DNA of 64,000 nt, from positions 310,001-374,000 of the forward strand of contig NZ_WNXX01000001.1 of assembly GCF_009733795.1 (NCBI RefSeq), given 5' to 3'. Both the position numbers and the translations under genes were made by a program. Positions within the stretch are counted from its first letter, which is position 1. Each line of letters begins with the position of its first letter. This stretch comes from Actinotalea caeni (GTDB taxonomy: Bacteria > Actinomycetota > Actinomycetes > Actinomycetales > Beutenbergiaceae). Under the pieces are notes generated by a model. It was not told the DNA's origin. It worked only from the letters and a program-made list of their open reading frames with translations, and did not search any database. Positions 6,136 to 64,000 of this stretch are shown one piece after another.

Positions 6136-7236
6136 ATGGCCGCAGAACCCGCACCGATCTCGTTCGCCCGAGGCGCCCCGTCGCTGGACATCATCGACGT
6201 CGAGGGCCTCAAGGCCGCCGCCGAGCGCGCCTTCACCGAGGACCCCGCCGGGACGTTCGCCTACGGGACGTCGGTCGGGTACCTGCCGCTGCGCGCCTGG
6301 ATCGCCGAGCGACACGGCGTCGCCGAGAACCAGGTGCTGGTGACGAACGGCTCGATGCAGGCCGACGCGTTCCTGTTCTCGACGCTGGTCTCCGCAGGTG
6401 ACGCGGTCGTCGTCGAGCGCCCCTCCTACGACCGCACGCTCGGCTCGCTGCGCTCGCTCGGCGCCGACCTGCACGCCGTGGACATCGAGCCCGACGGCGT
6501 CTCGGTCGACGGCGTGCGGCAGCTGCTCGACTCCGGCGTCTCGCCCCGGCTGGCCCACCTCATCCCGAACTTCCACAACCCCGCGGGCTACACCCTGAGC
6601 GCCGACAAGCGCACCGCTCTGGTGGCGCTCGCGCGCGAGCACGGGTTCACGATCTTCGAGGACGACCCCTACGTCGAGCTGCGCTTCCGCGGCGAGCGGC
6701 TGCCGACGATGTTCGAGCAGTCCGACGGCGAGGTCGTGTACGCGAGCTCGTTCTCCAAGACGGTGTGCCCCGGCATCCGCGTCGGCTACCTGGTCGGCCC
6801 GGCCGACCTCATCGGCGACATCGCGAGGCTGGCGACCTCGACGTACATCTCGCCGAGCATGGTGAGCCAGTCGATCGTCAACGCGTTCGTGCGCGGCGGC
6901 TCCTACGAGGCCTCGATCGAGACCGTCAAGACCGCGCTCGCCGAGCGCGCCCGGGTGCTGTGCGAGGGCCTGCGCGCCGAGCTCCCCGAGGTCGAGTTCG
7001 TCGAGCCCGAGGGCGGCTACTTCCTGTGGCTGACGTTCCCCGAGGGCACCGACGGCGACGCGCTCTTCGACGCCTGCACCGCCCGCGGCCTGCAGGTCGT
7101 CAAGGGCTCGGACTTCCTGCTCGACGACGCCCGCCACCACCTGCGGCTGGCCTACTCCGGCGTCGGCACCGCGCAGATCGCCGAGGGCGTCACCAGGCTC
7201 GCCGAGGCCTACCGCTCGCTGGAGGCTGCTCACTAG
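6136..7236 (+). CDS. PLP-dependent aminotransferase (2-aminoadipate/MocR-like fold type I, no DNA-binding domain)
   Basis: 366 residues, aminotransferase class I/II fold. Visible motifs: FAYGTSVGYLPLRAWIAER (N-terminal substrate region), VTNGSMQADAFLFSTLVSAGDAVVVERPSYDR, IPNFHNPAGYTLS (Asn contact to PLP), FEDDPYVELRF (Asp contact to the pyridine nitrogen), SSFSKTVCPGIRVGY with Lys208 as the Schiff-base lysine, and GGYFLWLTFP. It resembles LysN and the aminotransferase half of MocR regulators. The donor substrate is unknown. The ATG at 6136 follows TAGGCT (6123-6128) by 7 nt (leaderless type) and fits the family's start better than the upstream in-frame start. Confidence 0.85.
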   Translation: MAAEPAPISFARGAPSLDIIDVEGLKAAAERAFTEDPAGTFAYGTSVGYLPLRAWIAERHGVAENQVLVTNGSMQADAFLFSTLVSAGDAVVVERPSYDRTLGSLRSLGADLHAVDIEPDGVSVDGVRQLLDSGVSPRLAHLIPNFHNPAGYTLSADKRTALVALAREHGFTIFEDDPYVELRFRGERLPTMFEQSDGEVVYASSFSKTVCPGIRVGYLVGPADLIGDIARLATSTYISPSMVSQSIVNAFVRGGSYEASIETVKTALAERARVLCEGLRAELPEVEFVEPEGGYFLWLTFPEGTDGDALFDACTARGLQVVKGSDFLLDDARHHLRLAYSGVGTAQIAEGVTRLAEAYRSLEAAH

Positions 7237-8328: not shown

Positions 8329-8426
8329 GCGGGGCCGTGGACCGAGGCTGGGCGCTGGAATGCGCTGCCCCGTCGTCTCGTTGGTGCGGTCGCACCTGAC
8401 CCACACCCGCTGACCGAGGAGCTGGC

Positions 8427-10265
8427 GTGCACGAGAACCGGCCCGACTGGCTGACCGCCGTCATCGACCGGCTGCGCACCGAGACGGGCGCGGCGCTGCT
8501 GCTCGCGACCTTCGCGGCTGTCGCGCTCGTGTGGGCGAACTCCCCCGCCTCCGGATCCTACGAGGCGCTGTGGCACACCACGCTCGGGATCCACCTCGGC
8601 GACGTCAGCATCGAGATGGACCTGCACGCGTGGGTCAACGACGGCCTGATGGTGCTGTTCTTCTTCCTCATCGGGCTCGAGGTGCGGCAGGAGCTGGCGG
8701 TGGGCTCGCTGCGGGACCGCCGGCGCGCGCTGGTGCCGCTGGTCGCCGGGCTCGTCGGCGTCGTGCTGCCTGCGCTCGTCTACCTGATGATCGCGGGCAG
8801 GGAGGCACCGGGCGGCTGGGGCGTCGTCATCGGCACCGACACCGCGTTCCTGCTCGGCGTGCTCGCGCTGGTGGGGCCGGCGATGTCCAACCAGCTGCGG
8901 GTGTTCCTGCTGACGCTCACGGTCGTCGACGACTTCCTGGCGGTCGCGGTGATCGGCGTCGTCTACACCGAGGACCTGCGGCCCTGGCCGCTGCTGGTGG
9001 CGCTCGCGATGCTGGGCCTGCTGTGGCTGCTCGGCCGCTCCAGCGTGTGGCGCAGCGCGCCCTACGTGGTCGTCGTCGCGGTGCTCTGGGGCGCGACGCT
9101 CGTCTCCGGCGTGCACCCCTCGCTCGCCGGCATGGCCGCGGGCCTGCTCGTGCCCGCGGCCACCACGCAGCGGCGGCACGTCGAGGCCGCCAAGAGGCTG
9201 TTCCGCGACTACTGGCAGTCACCCGAGGCGCGGGTGGCGCGCACGGTGCGCGCCGGGCTCGCGCGGTCGATCTCCGTGAACGACCGGCTCCACGACGTGC
9301 TGCGCAGCCCGGTGTCGCTCGTCGTCGTCCCGATCTTCGCGCTCGCCAACGCCGGTGTCGACCTGCGCGGCGGCGTCCTCGCGACCGCGCTCGCCTCGCC
9401 GATCACGTGGGGTGTCACGGCCGGCCTGGTCCTCGGCAAGCTCGTCGGCGTCTCGCTCGGCGCGTGGGCCGCCGTCCGCGCGGGTCTCGGGCGGCTGCCC
9501 GACGGCGTCGGCCCGGGCAGCGTCCTGGGCGGTGCCGCGCTGTCCGGCATCGGGTTCACGATGGCGCTGCTGATCATCAGCCTCTCGCTCGAGGGCGAGC
9601 AGGCCGACGACGCGACGATCGGGGTGCTGCTCTCGCTCGTGCTGGCGACCGCGCTCGGCGCGCTGGTGTTCCGGATCGCCCGCACCCGGTGGGGCGAGGA
9701 GACCGCCGACCTGCCGACCCGGCTGACGCCCGACGTCGACCCCGACCGCGACCACGTGCGGGGCGACCCCGAAGCCCCGCTCACGGTCGTGGAGTTCCTC
9801 GACTTCGAGTGCCCGTTCTGCGCGCGCACGACCGGCATGTGGAAGGACCTCCACGAGCACTTCGGCGACCGGGTCCGCTACGTCGCCCGGCACCTCCCGC
9901 TCGACGGGCCGCACCCGCACGCCCGCGCCGCAGCCGTCGCGGCAGAGGCGGCCGGGCGGCAGGGGAAGTTCTGGGAGATGCACGACGTGCTGTTCGCCCA
10001 CCAGCAGCACCTCGAGCCCGACGACCTGCGCCGGTACGCGGCCGACCTCGGGCTCGACCTCGAACGGTTCGACGCCGACCTGCGCGACCCCGAGGTGATG
10101 GCCCTGGTCGAGCGCGACGAGCGCAGCGCGCACGACTCCGGCGCCCGCGGCACCCCGACCTTCTTCCTCAACGGCGAGCGCCACCGCGGCCCGCACGACG
10201 CGCGGACCCTGATCGCCGCGCTGGAGGCGCCCGAGAGCATGGCGGCCTCCCGGCGCCGCTCCTGA
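8427..10265 (+). CDS. nhaA: Na+/H+ antiporter NhaA fused to a C-terminal DsbA-like thioredoxin domain
   Basis: 612 residues. Residues ~1-420 are NhaA: WANSPASGSYEALW, NDGLMVLFFFLIGLEVRQELAVGSL, TDTAFLLGVLAL and TVVDDFLAVAVIG with the transport aspartates Asp168-Asp169, then FALANAGVDLRG and ALSGIGFTMALLI. From ~440 a DsbA-type thioredoxin fold follows: HVRGDPEAPLTVVEFLDFECPFC with Cys462-x-x-Cys465, and a cis-Pro region GTPTFFLNGE. NhaA expels Na+ for H+ in the membrane; the thioredoxin domain of such actinobacterial fusions is of unknown role. The start is GTG with GAGGAG 5 nt upstream. The 137-bp direct repeat begins 5 bp after its stop. Confidence 0.93.
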   Translation: MHENRPDWLTAVIDRLRTETGAALLLATFAAVALVWANSPASGSYEALWHTTLGIHLGDVSIEMDLHAWVNDGLMVLFFFLIGLEVRQELAVGSLRDRRRALVPLVAGLVGVVLPALVYLMIAGREAPGGWGVVIGTDTAFLLGVLALVGPAMSNQLRVFLLTLTVVDDFLAVAVIGVVYTEDLRPWPLLVALAMLGLLWLLGRSSVWRSAPYVVVVAVLWGATLVSGVHPSLAGMAAGLLVPAATTQRRHVEAAKRLFRDYWQSPEARVARTVRAGLARSISVNDRLHDVLRSPVSLVVVPIFALANAGVDLRGGVLATALASPITWGVTAGLVLGKLVGVSLGAWAAVRAGLGRLPDGVGPGSVLGGAALSGIGFTMALLIISLSLEGEQADDATIGVLLSLVLATALGALVFRIARTRWGEETADLPTRLTPDVDPDRDHVRGDPEAPLTVVEFLDFECPFCARTTGMWKDLHEHFGDRVRYVARHLPLDGPHPHARAAAVAAEAAGRQGKFWEMHDVLFAHQQHLEPDDLRRYAADLGLDLERFDADLRDPEVMALVERDERSAHDSGARGTPTFFLNGERHRGPHDARTLIAALEAPESMAASRRRS

Positions 10266-59250: not shown

Positions 59251-60335
59251 TACCGCGGGATCCACTCGGCGTAGAAGATCGCGAGGCCGGTCGCGACGAA
59301 CAGCACGGCGACGATCCAGAACCGCACGACGATCGTGACCTCGCCCCACCCCATCAGCTCGAAGTGGTGGTGCAGCGGTGCCATCTTGAACACCCGCTTG
59401 CCGGTCATCTTGAACCACCCGATCTGGATGACGTCGGAGAGGATGACCAGCACGAACATCCCGCCGATGATCGCGCCGAGGATCTCGGTGCGGGTGAGGA
59501 TCGTCAGCCCGGCCAGCGCGCCGCCGAGCGCGAGAGAGCCCGTGTCGCCCATGAAGATCTTGGCGGGCGAGGTGTTCCACCAGAGGAACCCGACGCAGGC
59601 GCCCACGATCGCGGCGGCGGCGATCGAGAGGTCCTGAGGGTCGCGCACCTCGTAACAGCTCGACAGCGCCTGGCTCAGCACCTGGCAGCTCTGGTTCGCC
59701 TGCCAGATCGTGAGGATGACGTAGGCGCCGAACACCAGCGCCGACAGCCCGGTGGCCAGGCCGTCCAGGCCGTCGGCGAGGTTGACGGCGTTCGACCACG
59801 CCGTGATGAGGAAGTTCGACCAGATGACGAACAGGACGAGACCGACGGTCGCGCCCGCGAACGCCAGGTCGAGCCCGAGGTCGCGGATGAACGAGATGTG
59901 GGTGCTGGCCGGGGTGCGGAACCGCTCGTTGGGGAACTGCAGAGCCAGCACCGAGAACGTGATGCCGACGGCACCCTGCCCGATGATCTTCCACATCGGC
60001 GAGAGCCCGAGCGAGCGCTGCCGGCTGATCTTCGTGAAGTCGTCGAGGAACCCGATCAGCCCCAGGCCGACCATGAGGAACAGCAGCAGCACGCCCGAGG
60101 CGTTGGGGCTGCGGCCGGCCACGACGTAGGCGACCGCGTAGCCGAGCACGGTCGCGCCGATGATGACGACACCGCCCATCGTGGGCGTGCCGCGCTTGGT
60201 GAGGTGCGCCGTCGGGCCGTCCTGCCGGATGAACTGGCCGTAGTTGCGGCGCACGAGGAACCGGATGAACAGCGGCGTGCCCAGCAGCGAGACGAGCAGC
60301 GCGACGGCGCCGGAGACGATGACGGAGATGATCAT
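59250..60335 (-). CDS. mraY: Phospho-N-acetylmuramoyl-pentapeptide transferase
   Basis: 361 residues, about ten helices. [20 protein letters not shown] at 40-60, FLDDFTKI (catalytic Asp pair), [25 protein letters not shown] (NLTDGLDGLA motif) and [16 protein letters not shown], then [10 protein letters not shown] with the conserved HHH. It links UDP-MurNAc-pentapeptide to undecaprenyl phosphate, giving lipid I. ATG 60335 overlaps the murF stop (ATGA). Confidence 0.97.
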
Positions 60336-61747
60336 GGCGTGGCGGCTCCCAGCGCTCCCGTGGCGAGCGCGTCGCCGATCCTGGACAGGCCGACACCGTT
60401 GGAGGCCTTGACGAGCACGACGTCACCGGGCCGCAGCAGCCCGCGCAGGAGCTGCTCGGCCTCGTCGACGTCGGCGGCGTGGTGCCCGCCGCTGCCGCCC
60501 GCGACGGCGGCTGCGAGCAGCGGCGCGGTGCCCGCACCGACGGCGACGACCTCCTCGATGCCGAGCTCGGCGGCGTAGGCACCGATCTCGGCGTGCTCGC
60601 GGCCGCTGTCCGGACCGAGGTCGAGCATCTCTCCCAGCACGGCGACTGCGCGGCGCTCGCCCGCGGTCATCGCGGCGAGGGCGCGCAGCCCGGCGCGCAT
60701 CGAGGTCGGGTTGGCGTTGTAGGCGTCGTCGACGACGCGGATCCCGTCGGCGCTGTCGGTCACCTGCATGCGGTGCGGGCTGATCGGGGCCGCGGCCGCG
60801 AGCTCCTCGACGACGTGGGCCAGCGGCAGCCCGAGGTGCAGCGCGACGGTGGCGGCCGCCAGTGCGTTGGTCACGTGGTGCTCGCCCGCGAGCCCGAGCC
60901 GCACCGGGAGCCGCTCCTCGCCCGCGGCCAGCACGAACCGGGCGTGGCCCTCGTCGTCGACCGTGACGTCGAGCGCACGCACGTCGGCGTCACCCGACCG
61001 GCCGAACGTCGTCACGCGCGGTGCGAGCGGCGCCATCGCGCTCACGCGCGGGTCGTCGGCGTTGAGCACCGCGACGCCGTCGCGGCGCAGCCCCTGCACC
61101 AGCTCGGCCTTGGCGCGCGCCACTCCGTCGATCGAGCCGAAGCCGCCGAGGTGGGCGTGCCCGACGATCAGCTCGACCGCGACGTCGGGCGGCGCGACCG
61201 AGGTGAGGAACGTGAGGTTGCCGGGGGCGTCGGCGCCCATCTCGAGCACCAGCACGCGGGTGCGCTCGTCGGCGCGCAGCACCGTCAGCGGCAGGCCGAT
61301 CTCGTTGTTGAACGAGGCCACCGGCGCCACGACGGGGCCCAGCGGCGTGAGGAGCACCGAGAGCAGGTCCTTGGTGCTGGTCTTGCCGACCGAGCCGGTG
61401 ATGCCGACCACGACGACGTCGTCGGCGGCGCGCAGGCGTGCGAGGACCTCGCGCGCGAGGTCGGCCAGGCCGGCGGCGGTGTCGGGCACCTGCACGCACG
61501 GCAGCGGCGGGTCGTCGACCTCGCGCGAGACCAGGGCGGCCACGGCGCCCGCGCGTGCGGCGGCGTCCAGGTAGTCGTGACCGTCGTGGTGCTCGCCCGG
61601 GAGCGCGACGAACAGGCAGCCGGGCGCGACCGCGCGCGAGTCGATCTCGACCGACGTCACGACGGCGGCGGAGCCCGGCTCCGCCACTCCACCGCCGAGC
61701 GTGCCTGCGGTGATCGCGGCGACCTCGGCCAGGGTGATCGGGATCAT
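60332..61747 (-). CDS. murF: UDP-N-acetylmuramoyl-tripeptide--D-alanyl-D-alanine ligase
   Basis: 471 residues. Domain 1 has [43 protein letters not shown]; the P-loop [26 protein letters not shown] carries the MurF-type [73 protein letters not shown] (carbamylated Lys in AKAELV); [19 protein letters not shown] in domain 3. It adds D-Ala-D-Ala. ATG 61747 overlaps the MurE-like gene (ATGA). Confidence 0.97.
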
Positions 61748-62928
61748 GACGTCGCGGGCGCGGCGCCTCGCTGCGCGATGCCGGCCCGCACCTCCTCACG
61801 ATCGTCGAGGTGCCCCTGCACCTCCCCCGTCTGCAGCCTCGTCAGGTGGCCGCGGCCGGCGACGAGCACGGTGTCCTGGGGCGCCGCGAGCGCGACGGTG
61901 CCGCGGATCGCCGCGGCGCGCGGAGCGACCTCGCTGACCGTGGCGGCGCCGGCCTCGCGCGCGGCGGCGAGCACGTCGGCGCGGATCGCCGCGGGGTCGT
62001 CGGCGGGGCCGTGGTCGTCGTCGGTCACGACGACGACGTCGGCACCTGCGGCCGCGCGGCCGATCGCCCGACGCTCCTCGGGGGTGTGGTCGCCGCGTGC
62101 GCCGACGACGACGTAGAGGCGGCCCTTGGTCGAGCGGCGCAGCTGGGTGACCACGCGCTCCAGGCGCTGCGGCACGTAGGCGATGTCGACGATGCAGCGC
62201 GGCCGGTCCGCCACGCGCTCGACGCGGCCCGGGACCGCCGGGCGCAGACCGCGCGGCAGCACGCGCGGGATCGTCGCGCCGCTCACCCCCAGCTCCATGA
62301 CCGCCACCAGCGCGAGCGCCGCGTAGCCGACCGAGAAGCGAGTCGGGATCCGCAGCGACGTCGACACGCTGCGACCGCTGCGGTGCGTCACGGTGAAGTC
62401 GATGTGGTCCGGCCGGCTCGCGTTGACGCTGGCGAGCCAGTCGGTGTCGGGCCCCCGCAGGTGGGTGCCGACGGTGATCGCGCCGGGCACGCGCGCGGCC
62501 ATCTCGACGCCGCTGTGGTCGTCGGCGAGCACGAGCGCACGGTCGGCCGAGCGCAGCAGCGCCTCGGCGGCGGCCAGGCGCTCGTCGCGGTGCTCGCCCT
62601 CGATCCCCTCGTCGAGGTAGGTGAGCATCGCGACGTCGAGGTGCGGCACGTCCGTGCGCTCCAGATCGACCCAGCGCAGCTCGAGGATCGTGTCGTCGAC
62701 GCCCGCCTGCTCGGCACGCGCGACCAGCGCCGCGACGTCGAGCGCGGCGGCGTCCTCGACGGGGGCGCGCTCCGCCCCGACCTTGAGCTCGACCGTGCTG
62801 TACAGCGCGGTGCTGCGACCGAGGGCGGACAGCACGTGCTCCAGCAGGTAGCACGTCGTCGCCTTGCCGGTGCTGCCGACGACGGCGTACGTGCGCCTGG
62901 AGTCCTCGGCGCCGGCCTCGATCGTCAT
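61744..62928 (-). CDS. Degenerate MurE-like protein in the murE position
   Basis: 394 residues, against ~500 for MurE. The P-loop is at residues 18-25 (GSTGKATT), so the ~100-residue UDP-binding domain is absent; GTNGKTT has become GSTGKATT. Its relation to MurE is clear from the C-terminal blocks: PGRVERV (233-239), CIVDIAYVPQRLERV (MurE: VDYAHTPDALE), GRLYVVVGARGDHTPEERRAIG and LVAGRGHLTRLQTGEVQGHLDDREEV. The MurE sites for the carbamylated Lys (DHLDYHG..AK), for E-x-SSHAL and for the third amino acid (DNPR) are replaced (ILELRWVDL; LDEGIEGEHRDERLAAAEALL; DDDHGPADDP at ~303-312). It may be inactive, regulatory or altered in substrate. ATG 62928; 62 bp after ftsI. Confidence 0.82.
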   Translation of the reverse strand: MTIEAGAEDSRRTYAVVGSTGKATTCYLLEHVLSALGRSTALYSTVELKVGAERAPVEDAAALDVAALVARAEQAGVDDTILELRWVDLERTDVPHLDVAMLTYLDEGIEGEHRDERLAAAEALLRSADRALVLADDHSGVEMAARVPGAITVGTHLRGPDTDWLASVNASRPDHIDFTVTHRSGRSVSTSLRIPTRFSVGYAALALVAVMELGVSGATIPRVLPRGLRPAVPGRVERVADRPRCIVDIAYVPQRLERVVTQLRRSTKGRLYVVVGARGDHTPEERRAIGRAAAGADVVVVTDDDHGPADDPAAIRADVLAAAREAGAATVSEVAPRAAAIRGTVALAAPQDTVLVAGRGHLTRLQTGEVQGHLDDREEVRAGIAQRGAAPATS

Positions 62929-62990
62929 GGTCGCGAATCTACCCGTTCAGGTCCTGGCCCCGGCGCAGCCGTGGCTCCCTCGAGCATCGG

Positions 62991-64000
62991 TCAGCCGTCG
63001 GCGCCCGACGGCGTCAGCGGGTACGGCGAGGCGGGCTCGTCCGACGGCCGCACCCCGAGGTCCGGCAGCGCGAACGCCGCGACGTCGCGGAACACCGGCG
63101 CCGCGACGGTGCCGCCGAAGAAGCCCGACGTCGGCTTGTAGACGACGACGGCGATCGTGAGCTCGGGGTCGTCGGCGGGCACCAGACCCACGAACGAGGC
63201 GGTCGTCGCGCTGATGCCGCCCGCGCCGTCCGCGGTCTGGGCGGTACCGGTCTTGCCGGCCACCCGGTAGCCCTCGACCGCGGCGTGGGTGCCGGTGCCG
63301 CCCTCGTCGGTCACCGACTCCAGCATCCGGATCATCTGGGCGCTGGTCTCCGGCGAGAGCACCTGGTCGGGCTCGGGTGCGGGCGCCTCCTCGAAGACGC
63401 CGTCGCACGACCAGCCGTCGACCAGGCGCGGGTCGAGGTGCATGCCCTGGTTGCCGATGGTCGAGAACACCCCGGCGTTCTGGAGCAGCGACACCGCCAC
63501 GCCCTGGCCGAACATCGTCGTGTAGCGCTGGCGGCCGTCCCACGACTCGTACGGGTGCAGCTGGCCGGGCGTGTCACCGGTCAGCCCGATGCCCGACGGC
63601 CGGCCCCAGCCGAGCCGCTGCATGTAGGAGTAGCGGGTCTCGTCGGTCATCAACCTGCCGATGTTGATCGTGCCGGTGTTGGCCGACTCGGCGAGGACCC
63701 CGGTCGTCGTCAGCACCTGGTCGGGATGCTCGGAGTGGTCGTGGAAGCGCTGACCGTCGACCGTCATCGCGTAGGGGTCGTCGATCGGCGTGAGCGGCGT
63801 GACGTGCCCCTCCTCCATCGCGGCCGCGACCGTGAGCACCTTCCCCGTCGAGCCGGGCTCGTAGATCGCCTGGTACGACGGCGCGAGCACCGCGTTGCTG
63901 GACGAGTAGCGGTCGATCGGCGGCTTGTTCGGGTCGTAGCTGTTGGAGTCCGCGAGCGCCAGCACCCGGCCGGTCTTGGTCTCGATCACCGCGACCGCGC
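62991..64000 (-). CDS. ftsI: Penicillin-binding protein transpeptidase FtsI (C-terminal part, cut by window edge)
   Basis: Only the last ~335 residues are present; the gene continues beyond the right edge. The transpeptidase domain is complete in its motifs: S-x-x-K in IYEPGSTGKVLTVAAAMEEG (STGK), S-x-N in LAESANTGTINIG, and K-T-G in RVAGKTGTAQTADG. PYAMTVDGQRFHDHSEHPDQVLTTTGVL and GWGRPSGIGLTGDTPG are typical of actinobacterial FtsI/PBP3. It cross-links septal peptidoglycan with FtsW. The upstream end (transmembrane helix, dimerisation domain) is outside the window. Confidence 0.93.
   Translation of the reverse strand, partial: AVAVIETKTGRVLALADSNSYDPNKPPIDRYSSSNAVLAPSYQAIYEPGSTGKVLTVAAAMEEGHVTPLTPIDDPYAMTVDGQRFHDHSEHPDQVLTTTGVLAESANTGTINIGRLMTDETRYSYMQRLGWGRPSGIGLTGDTPGQLHPYESWDGRQRYTTMFGQGVAVSLLQNAGVFSTIGNQGMHLDPRLVDGWSCDGVFEEAPAPEPDQVLSPETSAQMIRMLESVTDEGGTGTHAAVEGYRVAGKTGTAQTADGAGGISATTASFVGLVPADDPELTIAVVVYKPTSGFFGGTVAAPVFRDVAAFALPDLGVRPSDEPASPYPLTPSGADG

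Follow-up and report, generated by a model that had tools for sequence, protein, structure and literature searches.

Between ftsI and murF of the dcw cluster, the window (the whole stretch of 64,000 nucleotides analysed here) carries a gene in the murE slot whose product lacks much of what defines a MurE ligase. This raises the question of whether it still encodes an enzyme and, if not, what has kept it open. The frame lies at 61744..62928 on the minus strand, as do all features of the window described below, starts with an ATG at 62928 and encodes 394 residues without internal stops. Its product, here called pMurE, is a degenerate, domain-1-less protein derived from MurE, as judged from the reading frame, Pfam and NCBIfam scans, alignment, tree and omega values. 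It is flanked upstream by the 3' part of an ftsI-type transpeptidase gene (62991..63998, identified by frame and Pfam) and downstream by murF (60332..61747; TIGR01143 score 405.2 bits, above the cut-off). An earlier note, made from the sequence alone, had described this frame with GSTGKATT at residue 18 and the DDDHGPADDP, AGRGH, DDREEV and VDIAYVPQRLERV blocks, all of which were confirmed in the sequence.

Loss of domain 1 and of catalytic motifs

Only two Pfam domains were found in pMurE (E up to 0.1), Mur_ligase_M at residues 16-209 and Mur_ligase_C at residues 234-360. Its score against the MurE profile TIGR01085 (UDP-N-acetylmuramyl-tripeptide synthetase), 153.4-154.5 bits, is below the cut-off of 257.3, and the match begins at profile position 86-87 of 472. 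Since ftsI stops at 62991, leaving 62 nt to the pMurE ATG, and the pMurE frame is closed by a TGA seven codons further up, domain 1 cannot fit before the gene, as the earlier note had argued; nor was a stand-alone domain 1 found among the eight matches to the MurE profile in the same genome. A hidden domain 1 was thus rejected, and so was a frame-shift artefact, a possibility that the note had allowed for: Pseudactinotalea terrae and P. suaedae carry a gene that is equally short and has an identically altered P-loop.

Motifs were compared with those of 15 of the 20 normal MurEs of the family, genera g6, g9 and g10 being excluded. In all three Pseudactinotalea species (the window's own, P. terrae and P. 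suaedae) the P-loop reads GSTGKATT (residues 18-25, 62854..62877) in place of GTxGKTT, with Ala for the Thr after the Lys, and the stretch that formerly held TTPE, SSHAL, DHLDFHG and the carbamylated Lys (residues 57-140, 62509..62760) is eroded. In the alignment, SSHAL is altered in its SS and DHLDFHG in its DHLD throughout the trio, as is the position of the carbamylated Lys, so that the absence of the carbamylated-Lys motif and of SSHAL first noticed in the window holds in all three species; TTPE and the third-residue loop are lost as well. Replaced in all three species are the P-loop Thr, the carbamylated Lys, the metal-side His, the two Asn residues of FNVxNA and the KR-pair Lys, which, with SSHAL, we take to have roles in MurE catalysis. 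A non-canonical ligase, one of the functions first suggested, is therefore unlikely. K22, E83 and D248 are retained, and VDIAHN has lost its His and Asn in the window's species and keeps both in P. terrae and P. suaedae.

The 15 normal MurEs agree fully in 152 aligned columns. All three pMurE keep 75 of these; in 26 a single fixed residue has taken over (including T23A in the P-loop), in 24 the replacements vary, and the other 27 show a mixed pattern. A further 24 invariant columns are gaps in pMurE. Within the trio, 17 of 20 positions are invariant in residues 21-40 and likewise in 181-200, and 29 of 80 in residues 61-140. Blocks shared with dcw MurE are VPGRxERV, AGRGH (residues 357-361, 61846..61860, where the next Glu of AGRGHE is Leu) and DDREEVRA, whose DDREEV occupies residues 375-380 (61789..61806); the VDIAYVPQRLERV block is also present.

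The DNPR motif of E. coli MurE serves in third-residue recognition, and at this site pMurE has DDDHGPADDP (residues 303-312, 61993..62022), the loop reading DDDHG or DDDYG across the trio. Since the dcw MurEs of the nearest genera carry DDDPH-DEDP and not DNPR, it is a decayed form of the former: the loop has indeed decayed, as the note had it, but not from DNPR. By genus, the dcw MurE loop is DDDPH in g2, g4, g5, g7 and g8 and DENPR in g9 and g10, while the second MurE described below has EEDHR; these differences may track the wall amino acid.

Descent and distribution of the slot gene

Relatives of pMurE were sought over 84,980 species with the patterns TGKATTCY and DHI[DE]FT[VL]T, which detect close relatives only; 42 stretches matched and two encode relatives. 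These two are the proteins of P. terrae (65% identity) and P. suaedae (64%). Across 24 genomes of the family in ten genera, the slot holds a MurE frame adjoining murF in 20 (in one, G017, murE and murF are both frame-shifted), pMurE in the three Pseudactinotalea and no murE in one (G004), where the gap between ftsI and murF is 157 nt.

In a tree of 39 rows the three pMurE group with 13 dcw MurEs from g2, g4 and g7 (100/99 for this 16-row set), which bears out the MurE-derived origin claimed from the retained blocks. By this tree, pMurE descends from a dcw MurE of the kind usual in the family. The stem branch of pMurE measures 1.37 changes per column against 0.26 for the matching murF stem, and the branch sums within the genus are 0.93 and 0.67, respectively; change was thus fast on the stem and later came nearer to the pace of murF.

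No degenerate dcw MurE was reported in the rest of the order (297 genomes, E 1e-30, mostly five candidates scored per genome, a search that weaker copies would escape). The 58 genomes with at least two matches to the MurE profile were searched again, excluding G061 (73% complete) and the frame-shifted G017; the 84-443 profile matches in family f17 were taken as cyanophycin synthetase, one of them (L070) having been read. Two full-length MurEs over the cut-off were observed in each of G036, G053, G068 and G109 of genus g23 and of G079, G092, G157 and G183 of family f8.

A full-length MurE outside the dcw cluster

The earlier note had predicted a true MurE elsewhere in the genome, and one was found. 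In the 4,001,341 bp searched (49 contigs, completeness 99.99) a single MurE exceeds the TIGR01085 cut-off. This protein, MurE2, is encoded at C46:151793-153181, scores 496 bits over profile positions 2-471 of 472, and carries GTDGKTTT, EASSHAL, YFADKARL and FNVANAL, with EEDHRDTP at the DNPR site of the E. coli enzyme. Its gene is not in the dcw cluster; the gene directly upstream encodes a DUF5701 protein in the window's genome, and the gene preceding MurE2 in P. terrae and P. suaedae starts alike. All three Pseudactinotalea species have both pMurE and MurE2.

In the MurE tree MurE2 forms a separate clade (100/100, branch 1.88). Copies with 65-83% identity to that of the window's genome occur in 8 of 297 genomes of the order, its own included, from four genera: the three Pseudactinotalea, G004, three g66 species (family f3) and G261 (family f17). 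Nine further genomes match at only 37-45%. Identity is 70-72% to the g66 copies and 67% to that of G004, of the same family; the tree nonetheless joins G004 with Pseudactinotalea (92/82). This patchy spread suggests horizontal transfer by a route that the data do not indicate. In a search for MurE2 beyond the order, 1 of 394 genomes of the class matched (E 1e-110), which was the own one, a result of little weight as the sample also misses the other known holders. In the five MurE2 genomes outside Pseudactinotalea no other MurE was found (E 1e-30, five candidates scored per genome), and the old murE is gone in all three genera, leaving an empty slot in two and a 12-codon mini-ORF in the third.

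Promoter-like box and overlap with murF

A -10-like box, GGTAGATT (62936..62943), precedes pMurE and is common to the normal murE genes of the family. Between its TAGATT and the ATG lie 7 nt, a spacing that suits a leaderless transcript, and we infer a promoter function. The arrangement GGTAGATT-N7-ATG occurs once in the window against 0.00 expected. GTAGATT stands 6-8 nt before the apparent start in each of the 23 family genomes whose slot is occupied by a gene and is also retained in the G004 gap; the shorter TAGATT is kept in 24/24 family genomes and in all three g66 species. GTAGATT was found in none of 12 loci inspected in other families.

The pMurE stop and the murF start share a 4-nt ATGA (61744..61747), which had been read as a sign that the gene is still expressed and selected. 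As evidence for the protein this overlap is weak, since the same ATGA is present in all four normal murE-murF pairs inspected and a like overlap occurs in g66. There (G151, G232 and G280; loci L075, L076 and L077) the murE slot consists of TAGATT, 8 nt, a GTG and the 12-codon mini-ORF, whose stop overlaps the murF GTG by 4 nt, in all three species. In G261 ftsI overlaps murF and the box is absent. With MurE2 present, murE can therefore vanish or shrink to a leader, and Pseudactinotalea did neither; as three MurE2 genera live without pMurE, murF and dcw function in general do not depend on it. A promoter and translational coupling can explain some occupant of the slot, but would not account for 394 conserved codons in Pseudactinotalea.

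Selection on pMurE

Omega was estimated over the three species by NG86 and by IQ-TREE codon models. NG86 gave 0.32-0.53 for pMurE, 0.27-0.42 for murF, 0.21-0.24 for murE2 and 0.23-0.52 for ftsI, and GY+F3X4 gave 0.096, 0.059, 0.056 and 0.053, respectively; under three other codon models the values were 0.189-0.357 for pMurE and 0.178-0.331 for murF. Fixing omega at 1 for pMurE was 174.7 lnL units worse, and the wrong-frame controls gave 1.39 and 4.23 (12 and 6 stop-bearing columns removed). By segment, GY+F3X4 gave 0.05-0.15 in four segments; for residues 301-390 its fit failed, staying at 1.0 with a likelihood below that of GY+F1X4, and three other models gave 0.158-0.289. Codon gaps between species number only 1 to 5.

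The low omega, the penalty for omega of 1 and the wrong-frame controls argue that pMurE is selected as a protein, somewhat more loosely than its neighbours under the best-fitting model. Purifying selection on the orthologues fits a pseudoenzyme, and a neutral pseudogene was rejected on the same values. Partial relaxation is possible, given the faster change than in murF within the genus and the NG86 values of up to 0.53.

Structure and nearest known systems

The predicted model of pMurE, of middling confidence (pLDDT 68.9, pTM 0.56, three sequences), matches MurE minus domain 1, the best hit being 8g6p in Foldseek (E 1.1e-28) and 4bub_B in VIA-align (Z 26.1, rmsd 7.4, 358 residues), where the high rmsd may come from domain placement. 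Further matches include 8f5d, by title a MurE-MurF fusion, the PAP11 chains 8r6s (Foldseek rank 9), 9epc (VIA-align Z 25.7) and 8w9z, and MurT-GatD and folylpolyglutamate synthase structures (MurT Z 21.5).

Overall, pMurE resembles dcw MurE in descent, ftsI-murF slot, -10-like box, murF overlap, domains 2 and 3 and the shared blocks, and differs from it in the missing domain 1, the sub-threshold profile score and the motif losses described above. MurT is a Mur ligase without a UDP-binding domain. However, neither Pfam nor the 16 listed NCBIfam families, from a library that includes a MurT model, gave a MurT match for pMurE; its neighbours are ftsI and murF and not GatD, and its catalytic motifs are lost. 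None of these 16 families was a CapB/PgsB-type poly-glutamate synthetase, for which the library may hold no model. A MurE-like ligase of genus g21 (loci L065, L067, L068 and L069) also has domains 2-3 only and is a second copy beside a normal MurE, but its P-loop, Lys and DDNPR are intact and it lies outside the dcw slot.

In all four g21 genomes with this second ligase the tail-to-tail neighbour frame encodes hexapeptide repeats of the YDPDGG type: L065:7203-8825(+) with 8884-9300(-) (5 motif matches), L067:7172-8401(-) with 6409-7113(+) (7.7 DNA copies), L068:6965-8281(+) with 8333-8566(-) (11 motif matches) and L069:7179-8525(-) with 6841-7119(+) (12 motif matches). The arrangement suggests that a repeat peptide is paired with a Mur-type ligase, perhaps as a novel class of modified peptide; a combination of RiPP, Mur ligase and precursor peptide was not found in the open-access papers searched.

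Discussion

Having lost its catalytic residues while its protein sequence is under purifying selection in three species, pMurE is probably a MurE pseudoenzyme, a genus-specific scaffold or regulator of wall synthesis that arose after displacement of the enzyme. In Pseudactinotalea the dcw murE lost domain 1 and its metal- and substrate-side motifs along one long stem branch, and the remnant of domains 2 and 3, behind the -10-like box and overlapping murF, is kept by purifying selection in all three species; catalysis would have passed to MurE2, which is of another lineage. Against this reading count the small number of species, the three MurE2 genera that lack the protein, its faster change than that of murF, the further loss in VDIAHN in the window's species and the middling model. 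As a pseudoenzyme, pMurE would make no tripeptide and probably hydrolyse no ATP. Its most likely function would be either a binding role inherited from the ancestral MurE, with MurF or other Mur or division proteins as partners, or regulation of the cytoplasmic wall pathway, in which what is conserved of the nucleotide pocket may act as a sensor. According to PMC6420597, a Bordetella MurE-MurF fusion binds MurG, which is proposed as a scaffold, and a non-catalytic role of MurE is thus plausible. A more tentative proposal, to which we give slightly less than an even chance, is that the displaced dcw MurE of Pseudactinotalea no longer catalyses anything and now serves solely to regulate or scaffold the synthesis of peptidoglycan precursors. 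In the open-access papers searched no MurE or Mur-ligase pseudoenzyme was found, nor the stem-peptide chemistry or peptidoglycan type of Pseudactinotalea, and the titles listed in wider searches gave no pointer to a degenerate dcw MurE.

Instead, pMurE could be a slowly decaying remnant whose frame stays open mainly for the murF promoter and translational coupling, the protein being of little or no use. The box kept throughout the family and in g66, the g66 mini-ORF overlapping murF, the variable former active-site stretch (residues 61-140) and the upper NG86 values would all fit. Coupling, however, requires an open frame and not conserved residues, and the low GY+F3X4 values overall and by segment, the nearly invariant residues 21-40 and the scarcity of codon gaps make this account rather unlikely, if still the strongest rival of the pseudoenzyme.

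Considerably less probable is a ligase of new specificity acting on another substrate, as domain-1-less MurT, CapB or FolC do. The MurT-GatD and folylpolyglutamate synthase fold matches, the retained K22, E83 and D248 and the existence of the g21 ligase speak for it, but the P-loop Thr, the carbamylated Lys, the first His of DHLDFHG, the FNVxNA Asn pair and the KR Lys are gone from all three species and no new catalytic motif is seen. Least probable of all is a regulator outside wall synthesis, similar to PAP11. MurE homologues are a peripheral component of the plastid RNA polymerase and act outside wall synthesis, as PMC12681378 describes, and the fold matches include PAP11 chains. Nevertheless, this resemblance is that of the common MurE fold and nothing ties pMurE to RNA polymerase; moreover, the alignment of PAP11 with MurE2 starts at residue 14-18, so that PAP11 keeps domain 1, and by the same source it retains many catalytic residues as part of the plastid polymerase.

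If the pseudoenzyme reading is true, a bacterial Mur-ligase pseudoenzyme would set what MurE binds apart from what it catalyses. In the genome set, displacing an essential gene has led to differing results: a putative pseudoenzyme, a 12-codon leader and an empty slot. A physical complex of the cytoplasmic Mur enzymes is debated, and pMurE would let a structural role of MurE be probed without stopping tripeptide synthesis.
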